Below, in pieces: positions 40,947-43,043 of a stretch of DNA of 64,000 bases. This DNA comes from Sphingomonas sp. 67-36 (lineage in GTDB: Bacteria > Pseudomonadota > Alphaproteobacteria > Sphingomonadales > Sphingomonadaceae): NCBI GenBank assembly GCA_001897375.1, contig MKSU01000004.1, positions 89,603 to 153,602 on the forward strand, written 5' to 3'. The first letter of the stretch is position 1. The number at the start of each line of letters is the position of its first letter. The notes beneath the pieces are model-generated. The model had not been told where the DNA came from and searched no databases. It was given only the letters and a program-made list of their open reading frames with translations. The position numbers and the translations under genes are program-made.

Positions 40947-41413
40947 GGATGATGATGCGTACCGAGGAACAGAAGCGCCGCCCCGGAGTCCGCCGGCGTC
41001 GCCACGAGGAGGGGTTCACCCTTGTCGAACTGATGGTGGTGATCGTCATCATCGGCCTGCTCGCCACGATCGTAGCGCTGAACGTGCTGCCGTCCGGCGA
41101 CACCGCGCGCATCCAGAAGGCGAAGGCCGATATCGCCAACATCGAACAGGCGCTGGAACTCTACAAGCTCCAGATCGGCAGCTATCCGACGACGACGCAG
41201 GGGCTGGGCGCGCTGGTGACGGCGCCGCAGGGCGTGGATGCGGCGCGCTATCAGGCGGGCGGCTATCTCAAGAAACTGCCGGACGATCCGTGGGGGCGGC
41301 CGTATCTCTATGCCGCGCCGGGGAAGCACTCCGCCGCCGACGTATGGAGCCTCGGCGCGGACGGCAAGGAAGGCGGCGAGGGCGTCGATGGCGATATCGG
41401 CTCCTGGCAATAG
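40943..41413 (+). CDS. gspG: Major pseudopilin GspG
   Basis: Main subunit of the periplasmic pseudopilus. Prepilin leader ends HEEG, followed by the mature FTLVELMVVIVIIGLLATIV; the C-terminal calcium-binding region DPWGRPYLY...DVWSLGADGKEGGEGVDGDIGSW is intact. The first ATG overlaps the gspF stop; four Met in MRMMMR offer alternative starts (156 residues from the first). Unlike gspH-J, its leader lacks the RSAEHGF repeat. Confidence 0.96.
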   Translation: MRMMMRTEEQKRRPGVRRRRHEEGFTLVELMVVIVIIGLLATIVALNVLPSGDTARIQKAKADIANIEQALELYKLQIGSYPTTTQGLGALVTAPQGVDAARYQAGGYLKKLPDDPWGRPYLYAAPGKHSAADVWSLGADGKEGGEGVDGDIGSWQ

Positions 41414-41930
41414 GCGGCTGATTGGAAATGCACCCGAAAGTGCGTTTCGCGAGCCGGTGCCGCTCACCGAACGCGGCTTCGATTCTTTTGGGCGTTCCGC
41501 CGAACACGGCTTCACGCTGATCGAGTTGATGGTCGTCATGCTGGTGATCGCGCTGGCGGCGACGGCGGCGGTGCTGGCGATGCCCGATCCGCACGGGCGC
41601 GTGATCGACGAGGCGGCGCGCTTCGCCCTGCGCGTCCGCGCCGCGCGTGACGGCGCGATCGTCGATGCGCGGCCGGTGAGCGTGTGGGTGACGCCCGGCG
41701 GCTATGGCTTCGATCGCTGGGAGAGCGGGCGCTGGGTGGCGATGGACGAGAAGCCGCTGACGGTCGCGCAATGGGGACGGGGCACCACCGCGACGATCGG
41801 CGACCGGTTGCGCGTCACCTTCGACGCGACCGGCATGGCGGATCGCCCGGCGGCGGTCCCGCTGCTGCGGGAGCGGGCGCGGGCGACGGTGACGATCGAC
41901 CCGACCGGCGCGGTGCGCGTCGATGGCTGA
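41388..41930 (+). CDS. gspH: Minor pseudopilin GspH
   Basis: Pseudopilin with the cleavage context RSAEHG/FTLIELMVVMLVIALAA and a mature domain ending in GspH-type strands (FDRWESGRWVAMDEKPLTVA). The start at 41388 is the only ATG before the helix and lies inside gspG, giving an unusually long leader of about 43 residues; a weak non-ATG start further down is possible. The leader contains two 11-residue repeat units. Confidence 0.85.
   Translation: MAISAPGNRRLIGNAPESAFREPVPLTERGFDSFGRSAEHGFTLIELMVVMLVIALAATAAVLAMPDPHGRVIDEAARFALRVRAARDGAIVDARPVSVWVTPGGYGFDRWESGRWVAMDEKPLTVAQWGRGTTATIGDRLRVTFDATGMADRPAAVPLLRERARATVTIDPTGAVRVDG
41460..41525 (+). repeat. 11-residue leader repeat, two units, in gspH
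   Basis: Unit 1 reads PLTERGFDSFG, unit 2 RSAEHGFTLIE; each is 33 bases. Unit 2 opens with CGTTCCGCCGAACACGGCTT at 41493, identical in gspI and gspJ. Confidence 0.8.
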
Positions 41931-42360
41931 CGGGCGCGGCCTCGATCCTCTTTGGCGCGCCGCCGGACCCGGCTTCACGCCCCATCAGCGTTCCGCCGAA
42001 CACGGCTTCACGTTGATCGAGATCATGGTCGCGCTCGCGGTGTTCAGCCTTGCCGCGCTGGCGCTGATCCGGCTGGAAGGCGCAACGATCCGCTCGACCG
42101 GTGCGCTGGATTCGACACTTCTCGCGCAGACCGTTGCGCGCAACGTCGCGATCGAGGCGATCACCGACGCCCGCCCGCCCGCCGCCGGCCGTACAGAGGG
42201 CAATGAGCGCAACGGCGGCCGCGATTGGCATTGGACGCGCGAGGCGCGCGCGATCGGCGACGGGCAGGTCATGCGGATCGACGTCACCGTCGCCGGGCCG
42301 GACGGCCGCGAACTCGGGCGGATGACGATGGTCCGCCCCCAGGCGGAACAGGCGCAATGA
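41923..42360 (+). CDS. gspI: Minor pseudopilin GspI
   Basis: A 145-residue pseudopilin with cleavage context RSAEHG/FTLIEIMVALAVFSLAALAL and the GspI-type mature domain (LLAQTVARNVAIEAITDARP, MRIDVTVAGPDGRELGRMTM). ATG overlaps the gspH stop by eight bases. The 26-residue leader holds RAAGPGFTPHQ then RSAEHGF, preceded by a degenerate third unit ending GLDPLW. Confidence 0.9.
   Translation: MADGRGLDPLWRAAGPGFTPHQRSAEHGFTLIEIMVALAVFSLAALALIRLEGATIRSTGALDSTLLAQTVARNVAIEAITDARPPAAGRTEGNERNGGRDWHWTREARAIGDGQVMRIDVTVAGPDGRELGRMTMVRPQAEQAQ
41956..42021 (+). repeat. 11-residue leader repeat, two clear units, in gspI
   Basis: RAAGPGFTPHQ (41956-41988) followed by RSAEHGFTLIE (41989-42021), exact 33-base spacing. 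The preceding GLDPLW matches the tail of the first unit of gspJ (GFSPLA). Confidence 0.8.
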
Positions 42361-43043
42361 GCGCGCACCGTTCCGCCGAACACGGTTTCAGTCCTTTGGC
42401 GCGTTCCGCCGAGCACGGTTTCACGCCCCGTGAGCGTTCCGCCGAACACGGCTTCACGCTGGTCGAGGTGATGATCGCGCTGCTGATCTTCGGCATGATC
42501 GCGGCGGCGGGCGTGGCGATGCTGTCGTTCAGCATCAGGGCGCAGAGCGCGACAGGCGCGCGGCTCGACGATATCGGCGCGGTGCAGCGGCTCGCGTCGA
42601 TCCTCGGCGCCGATCTGGCGCAGGCGGTCGACCGGCCGGCGCGTGACGAGCGCGGCACGCTGCTCCCGGCCTTCGTCGGCACCGCCACCACGCTGCGGCT
42701 GGTGCGCGGCGGCTGGGGCAATATCGACGATGCGCCGCGCGCCTCGTTGCAGAAGGTCGAATACCGGCTCGGCGAGGAGGCGATCGAGCGCATCGGCTAT
42801 CCGATGCTCGATGGCGCCGAGCCTTATCCGCCCGGCGCGATGCTGGACGGGGTGAGGGCGATCAAGCTGCGTTACCGCTTCCAGGGCGCGTGGAGCGATC
42901 ATTGGGACGGAACGCAGGGCGCGCCGCTGCCAGCAGTGGTCGAACTGACGATCACGCGGCGGGACGGCACGACGCTGCGCGAGATGTTCCTCGTCGGCAC
43001 CGGCTATGCGCCGCTCGGGACGGGCAGGAACAATGTCCTCTGA
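42357..43043 (+). CDS. gspJ: Minor pseudopilin GspJ
   Basis: A 228-residue pseudopilin. The leader is MSAH plus three repeat units; cleavage is expected at the last, RSAEHG/FTLVEVMIALLIFGMIAAAG. The mature part has the GspJ-type VQRLASILGADLAQAVDRPARDERG and a long beta domain. ATG overlaps the gspI stop (ATGA). Confidence 0.92.
   Translation: MSAHRSAEHGFSPLARSAEHGFTPRERSAEHGFTLVEVMIALLIFGMIAAAGVAMLSFSIRAQSATGARLDDIGAVQRLASILGADLAQAVDRPARDERGTLLPAFVGTATTLRLVRGGWGNIDDAPRASLQKVEYRLGEEAIERIGYPMLDGAEPYPPGAMLDGVRAIKLRYRFQGAWSDHWDGTQGAPLPAVVELTITRRDGTTLREMFLVGTGYAPLGTGRNNVL
42369..42467 (+). repeat. 11-residue leader repeat, three units, in gspJ
   Basis: RSAEHGFSPLA (42369), RSAEHGFTPRE (42402) and RSAEHGFTLVE (42435), each 33 bases, with near-identical CGTTCCGCCGAACACGG openings (the second has GAGCACGG). 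Confidence 0.9.

Follow-up and report, generated by a model that had tools for sequence, protein, structure and literature searches.

A 33-nucleotide in-frame repeat in the leaders of type II secretion pseudopilin genes of Sphingomonas and its relatives

In the window (the whole 64,000-nucleotide stretch of Sphingomonas sp. 67-36 DNA that was analysed), the leaders of three minor pseudopilin genes of a type II secretion system (T2SS), gspH, gspI and gspJ, carry a 33-nt unit, composed of a ‘core’ CGTTCCGCCGAACACGGCTTC (encoding RSAEHGF) and a 12-nt ‘tail’, that lies in register with the prepilin cleavage site. The same repeat is present in many Sphingomonadaceae T2SS clusters, GspG included. 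The explanation that we favour, at about even confidence, is that the repeat is a coding minisatellite, able to form a hairpin and peculiar to pseudopilin leaders, swapped among sibling genes and tolerated there because prepilin peptidase removes the leader.

A first-pass annotation of this DNA had described a 33-base repeat in the three leaders, and its presence is borne out by a search with a 22-mer at up to three mismatches, which gave five matches in the window versus 0.01 expected (five being reached in none of 100 shuffles). The cores start at 41493 (gspH), 41989 (gspI), and 42369, 42402 and 42435 (gspJ), with 0, 0, 1, 2 and 0 mismatches, respectively; among window 21-mers ending in GGYTTY, eight sites lie at a core distance of 0 to 6 and every remaining site at 8 or more. 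The copy numbers originally proposed (two in GspH, two to three in GspI and three in GspJ) stand for gspJ, with its three clear units; gspH and gspI each have one clear and one degenerate unit, and the third copy suggested for GspI is at most a relic. The accompanying description of the leaders as long and repetitive is supported. GspG, GspH, GspI and GspJ were identified with Pfam and NCBIfam (GspH scoring above the Pfam cut-off and below the NCBIfam one), and each displays the prepilin N-terminal motif together with its family domain; gspG of the window's genome is without units. The corresponding features are these:

40952..41413, + strand: gspG, major pseudopilin; ordinary leader (..RRRRHEEGFTLVE), unit-free here, with units in a number of relatives
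41388..41930, + strand: gspH, minor pseudopilin; probable ATG at 41388 within the gspG 3' end; N_methyl and GspH Pfam matches
41460..41492, + strand: gspH degenerate upstream unit PLTERGFDSFG; 6 of 21 core positions mismatched
41493..41525, + strand: gspH terminal unit RSAEHGFTLIE; exact core; cleavage expected after the G of GF
41923..42360, + strand: gspI, minor pseudopilin; no further in-frame ATG, GTG or TTG from its ATG to the cleavage site
41923..41955, + strand: gspI possible relic unit MADGRGLDPLW; 10 of 21 core positions mismatched; at most a relic and not counted as a unit
41956..41988, + strand: gspI degenerate unit RAAGPGFTPHQ; four core mismatches; inner stem GCCG/CGGC retained, loop altered; covariance-model E 2.2e-4, the unit being itself part of that model's alignment
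41989..42021, + strand: gspI terminal unit RSAEHGFTLIE; exact core
42357..43043, + strand: gspJ, minor pseudopilin; start ATG overlapping the gspI stop; in-frame TTG at 42396 between units 1 and 2
42369..42401, + strand: gspJ unit 1, RSAEHGFSPLA
42402..42434, + strand: gspJ unit 2, RSAEHGFTPRE
42435..42467, + strand: gspJ terminal unit RSAEHGFTLVE; exact core

The repeat is confined to a single kind of site. A scan of 84,980 species, covering contigs of at least 3,000 bases, returned 150 matches to an exact 23-mer on 69 stretches, and every one of the 150 falls within a pseudopilin leader, in frame and in register (142 recognised by pattern and eight in one array at the end of a contig, L241). 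The titles of these records name Sphingomonas, Sphingobium, Hephaestia, Sphingorhabdus, Sphingomonadales or Sphingomonadaceae assemblies, together with two entries labelled ‘Proteobacteria bacterium’, one ‘uncultured bacterium’ and one ‘Microvirga sp.’, the last of which was taken as a mislabel. In the window's own 4.0-Mb genome, the genome-wide search that had been proposed as a check was carried out with a covariance model for which 150 examples of the unit were used, two being from the genome searched, and gave six matches at E values of 2.2e-4 or less, all at this locus, with the next best at E 0.05. A 16-mer allowing up to two mismatches matched 11 times on the forward and four times on the reverse strand, versus four and one for the reversed pattern, and its best five matches are at this locus; by neither search was a convincing copy of the unit found outside gsp in this genome.

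Although the feature had been proposed for three pseudopilins of one strain, and stands for those three, it extends to many genera and to GspG. Genome searches with a back-translated RSAEHGF pattern (third positions open, Arg as CGN and Ser as TCN), using one genome per species, found matches in 24 of the 151 genus genomes and, at family level, in 24 of 298 genomes representing 14 of 96 genera, the window's genome being counted in both; with the pattern reversed as a control, none of the listed rows had a match. One of the genus matches lies on a contig other than that of its gspG, with no pilin motif after it (G046). A corresponding pattern for a ‘QQ’ form of the peptide matched one of 151 genus and four of 296 family genomes, two of the family matches using different codons. 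A GspG match was found in 145 genus genomes, and in 54 of these only a distant one (42-50% identity), which suggests a second type of T2SS; in the 13 distant-type loci that were read (L181-L193), where only one or two pseudopilins were recognised per locus, no units were found in any. Ninety of the other 91 genomes were examined (23 pattern-positives and 67 of 68 pattern-negatives): a terminal unit within three mismatches is present in 40, of which 17 are pattern-negative, and absent from 50. The highest unit count, 31 pattern matches in one genome, belongs to Sphingomonas laterariae, whose gsp leaders lie at the ends of two contigs (L108 and L241), probably reflecting an assembly break within the arrays.

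Copy number and presence are variable, and the reading frame is not. Across the 46 pattern-positive loci the number of copies per gene ranges from 0 to 7 in GspG, 0 to 5 in GspH, 0 to 4 in GspI and 0 to 6 in GspJ (low counts include chance occurrences, because units with up to seven core mismatches were counted), and it differs among close relatives. Successive units, in 75 arrays that have two or more of them and one or more near-exact cores, are 33 nt apart in 139 of 141 steps, 36 in one and 30 in one, all multiples of three, in a search that would also have accepted shifts of 1-2 nt. These are tandem units, variable in number and in frame, as expected of an in-frame minisatellite. Exact cores make up 48 of 75 terminal, 37 of 66 middle and 18 of 75 first units.

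Some close relatives differ by the presence of a clean 33-nt in-frame unit and can be placed side by side. The GspI leaders of three loci (L130, L131 and L134) read MRAERGFTLIEIM, versus MRAERGFT-LRRRYAEHGFT-LIEIM in three others (L132, L143 and L144), such that the unit falls exactly between the native GF-T and L-x-E; variants occur in L135 and L139. A tree of mature GspG-J, made from 101 of 126 loci (the 25 left out being without four genes classifiable by the rules used), shows at least 13, 19, 15 and 20 changes of unit presence in G, H, I and J (67 summed), compared with shuffled means of 18.1, 28.6, 24.9 and 26.3 over 60 shuffles. Because the observed values all fall below the lowest shuffle, unit presence is inherited, with frequent gain or loss, between which the change count does not separate. 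A missing unit may never have been gained or may have been lost: the sister of the window locus (L114) is unit-free, and its gspJ leader resembles a unit minus six bases, a sequence likeness that points to a decayed unit and thus to loss. All five other genera with at least two loci form clades in the gsp tree, as does the window's genus except for one locus (L073) on a very long branch that is placed outside it, which speaks against frequent wholesale transfer of gsp clusters.

Exchange between neighbouring genes, which the first-pass annotation had raised, is supported by the tails. Their likeness is 0.759 within arrays, 0.629 between genes of one genome and 0.51-0.53 between genomes; permutation of genomes gives 0.516 and reached 0.629 in only two of 2,000 trials. 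Units therefore seem to pass between sibling genes of one genome.

The letters of the core are conserved well beyond what its peptide would need. Among 147 in-frame RSAEHGF units in any codons (46 loci), 110 have the identical 21 letters, 31 are one letter off, five are two off and one is three off, and the exact 21-letter core occurs in 41 of the 46 loci and 13 of 14 genera; since the loci were picked for RSAEHGF, by a pattern open at third positions (two-fold for E, H and F, with the first letters of Ser and Arg fixed), this count bears on the DNA letters and not on the peptide. Codon identity at the same amino acid is 0.91-1.0 in RSAEH versus 0.49-0.68 in TLVE and mature stretches, a comparison in which selection for near-exact cores favours the core. 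Core identity across 617 locus pairs, for units at no more than four mismatches, is 0.955 within and 0.944 between genera, and it hardly declines with gspE/gspF divergence, still being 0.917 in the most divergent bin. At four-fold sites the core gives 0.898 within and 0.914 between genera, versus 0.601 and 0.552 for gspE/F. Three of the codons, CGT, TCC and GAA, make up 3%, 19% and 23% of their codon sets in seven window genes, mostly gsp. Changes in RSAEH number 33 synonymous to 56 non-synonymous, where the possible single changes are 11 to 34, so that 63% alter the amino acid versus 76% expected under uniform change. Protein constraint on RSAEH is thus weak, conservation acts mainly on the DNA or RNA level, and persistence of the DNA across genera is clear. 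An apparent several-fold excess of variability in the tail over the core (0.20 versus 0.07 per site between adjacent units at first look) was dropped: at third positions of adjacent units with clearly homologous tails, the difference is insignificant (13 of 259 in the core versus 36 of 444 in the tail, p 0.13).

The core likely forms a hairpin, with the predicted consensus fold GCGT-tcc-GCCG-aaca-CGGC-ttc-ACGC. The closing pair 10-15 is the most strongly coupled pair of the core (APC 0.243, next 0.066; 392 rows), is paired in 375 of 392 rows and has a score reached in none of 2,000 shuffles; in the RSAQQGF variant (CGTTCCGCCCAACAGGGCTTC) both letters of this pair, and both amino acids, are changed. 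Inner-stem covariation is 0.173 versus 0.067 shuffled (reached in 0 of 500) in 150 of 322 distinct rows, an alignment that retains all 29 rows nearer the QQ form, which is therefore over-represented, and the shuffles used for covariation do not preserve relatedness. The inner-stem double changes, 26 in all, are one and the same pair in several lineages, and may amount to one event. In a first set of 208 distinct near-EH rows, with two C-G closing pairs, pairing was about that of independence; the signal arose once more RSAQQGF variants were included. For the outer stem the excess is weak (2 of 500 shuffles), and a slide of +2 scores higher (0.214 versus 0.187). Given the 150-row alignment, RNAalifold predicted no structure. 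Ranked for stability among all synonymous encodings in four contexts, the native ones fall in the best 0.5-5%, or 3-35% when weighted by host codon use. Mutations common to at least two units of a genome are 2 of 27 in the inner stem and 25 of 99 elsewhere (Fisher p 0.06). The coding palindromic element suggested from the window alone therefore survives only in altered form: the palindrome originally named, GTTC-CGCC-GAAC, has no covariation (its score was reached by 235 of 500 shuffles), and it is the other hairpin that shows some.

Under the minisatellite explanation, the core would fold into this imperfect hairpin, and the short direct repeat GGYTTY borne by the units (usually followed by AC) would allow arrays to lengthen or shorten in 33-nt steps by slippage; that GGYTTYAC occurs in only 83 of 141 internal units counts against it. 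Units of 33 nt would move among gspG, gspH, gspI and gspJ, which have GF-T-L-x-E at an equal position, and host selection would keep the frame, avoid stops and hold internal copies uncleavable, leaving a discarded leader peptide otherwise nearly free. Concerted evolution alone leaves the substitution rate unslowed, and for that reason slippage alone does not explain the identity across genera. Constancy of the core would be held at the DNA or RNA level, most likely because copying or retention is limited to units whose hairpin is intact; what fixes it may be the copying mechanism, an RNA function or short-range transfer.

A bolder proposal, possible though doubtful, is that the repeat represents a family-specific micro-element, about 24 nt long, every letter of which is preserved by sequence-specific copying or RNA recognition, and which inserts or amplifies solely at pseudopilin GF codons; if true, signal peptides would here harbour a selfish or regulatory DNA element restricted to one kind of site.

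The conserved letters might instead serve the message. If the core worked as an mRNA hairpin adjusting the translation or stability of pseudopilin messages, selection on the RNA would preserve them, as would fit the conserved synonymous positions, the covariation of the closing pair, the location in early coding sequence, and the better-than-shuffled folding of a consensus two-unit array (z -2.7) and the gspH leader (z -2.2). Against this, the window's gspI and gspJ leaders fold no better than shuffles (z -0.5 and +0.3), presence and copy number vary among close relatives, and no terminal unit within three mismatches was found in 50 of 90 Sphingomonas clusters of the window's type; we regard an mRNA role as unlikely.

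Somewhat less likely again is a dedicated short-sequence mobility or templated copying system that inserts the unit at pseudopilin GF sites and moves it between species. Such a system would account for identical DNA in many genera while the flanking TLVE codons have diverged (codon identity 0.49-0.62), for core identity that is no lower with host divergence, and for the patchy distribution among genus and family genomes; furthermore, a gsp cluster can ride on a sphingomonad plasmid. No template copy is found elsewhere in the window's genome, however, and the clades formed by the five other genera also count against it. A phage or viral origin was rejected, as the exact core is absent from viral contigs and the gspJ leader has no match in phages. 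Mobility of the REP/RAYT kind was likewise rejected: Y1/IS200-type transposases are limited to 13 of the 151 genus genomes, the window's not being among them (E 1e-5). A plasmid search with the gspJ leader gave six records, with partial matches covering 23-31% of the query, one of them from a sphingomonad. The plasmid-borne cluster (NZ_CP155753.1, with gspE to gspN seen) lies on a 385-kb Sphingomonas parapaucimobilis plasmid, a possible transfer vehicle, and is without the unit, the nearest terminal 21-mer having seven mismatches. Three further candidates were dropped because exact copies occur only in gsp leaders, namely a LexA box, a DNA uptake sequence and an sRNA target, of which the last would also have its pairing broken by the double change.

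That the repeated RSAEHGF peptide is itself functional, aiding prepilin sorting, SRP targeting or regulated cleavage, is improbable, and no evidence was found for the sorting or cleavage role that had been suggested. In its favour, 134 of 141 internal units retain GF and each unit adds basic residues; opposed to it are RSAEH changes that are near random in kind, codon conservation that exceeds the need of the peptide, and unrelated leaders in many relatives. The consensus for prepilin cleavage calls for a hydrophobic residue at +3 and E or D at +5. None of the 141 internal units combines the two (E is at +5 in seven and P at +3 in 70), and internal copies are therefore not consensus cleavage sites; the earlier suggestion that only the last GF fits cleavage agrees with this. 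Other repeats seem to be translated in frame in the leaders of L078, L130, L135, L143 (GspH), L104, L172, L173, L158 (GspG), L152, L160, L268 (GspH), with peptides such as WIPAYAGMT, HSRAGGNP, LSLSKH..PSTSSGRT and STSLRLN..VRTERSRS, which we take to be translated REP-like repeats; short repeats of various kinds may thus tend to land in pseudopilin leaders.

Translation through the repeats in the window is well supported, because gspI has no in-frame ATG, GTG or TTG past its start at 41923 up to the cleavage site. The ATGs of gspI and gspJ overlap the preceding stops, and the same ATGs are present in the unit-free sister locus. The gspH start is probably ATG 41388 (MAISAPGN...), inside the gspG 3' end, a position common to many relatives; the sole other in-frame start upstream of the cleavage site is GTG 41457, and in the near-identical sister locus no further in-frame gspH start is visible downstream of the ATG. 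Annotation of gspH from GTG 41457 would give a shortened leader (the overlap with gspG is 41388-41413). The converse, that the arrays are untranslated and true starts lie directly before the mature helix, is scarcely credible: an in-frame ATG or GTG lies inside 33 of 75 arrays (43 counting TTG), and three arrays lack a start before their first unit (one of them beginning at a contig end, the other two having an internal ATG or GTG), but 32 of the 75 contain no ATG, GTG or TTG whatever, every spacing is a multiple of three, and the start positions exist in the unit-free sister locus (L114) as well.

Several known systems resemble the repeat in part, the nearest in kind being Rickettsia palindromic elements (RPE) and REP elements. 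Like RPE and other coding MITEs, it is DNA tolerated in frame within protein genes and may be palindromic, its 33-nt in-frame presence and absence being clear and support for the palindrome moderate. RPE are about 105-150 bp and occur in unrelated genes and intergenic DNA, in the portions of the literature drawn on here (PMC2229807, PMC10969869); relative to that description our unit differs in being 33 nt long and tandem, with an exact core found only in pseudopilin leaders. It likely shares with REP elements (GTAG and CGTC families; RAYT transposases) the form of a 20-40 bp hairpin, and CGTC families are reported from sphingomonads in the part of the source consulted (PMC3733652). REPs are mostly extragenic and numerous, whereas the window's genome has no copies outside gsp and no RAYT or other Y1 transposase, which CGTC families do not require. 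Because the spread over unrelated genes or intergenic DNA that defines them is not seen, the unit was not filed as a member of either group.

The likeness to intragenic minisatellites consists of tandem in-frame units, variable number and likeness within arrays. Unlike them, this repeat has core DNA that is near-identical across genera at synonymous sites, and it sits in a cleaved class III leader common to four adjacent paralogous genes. GspG, GspH, GspI and GspJ have the N_methyl motif, GF cleavage site and family domains of T2SS pseudopilins, but leaders with several 11-residue repeats set them apart from ordinary ones. A literature search found no publication on RSAEHGF and, among titles and abstract openings, no published description of repeated pseudopilin leaders.

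Signal peptides are usually regarded as free to vary in DNA. In this case the synonymous sites of a leader segment stay alike from genus to genus, in several genes belonging to a single secretion machine, yet close relatives differ in how many copies of it they have, or in having it at all. The repeat thereby offers a natural test case for the origin, spread among paralogues and persistence of short coding repeats where the peptide is discarded, and it bears on the annotation of T2SS gene start sites in Sphingomonas and Sphingobium.
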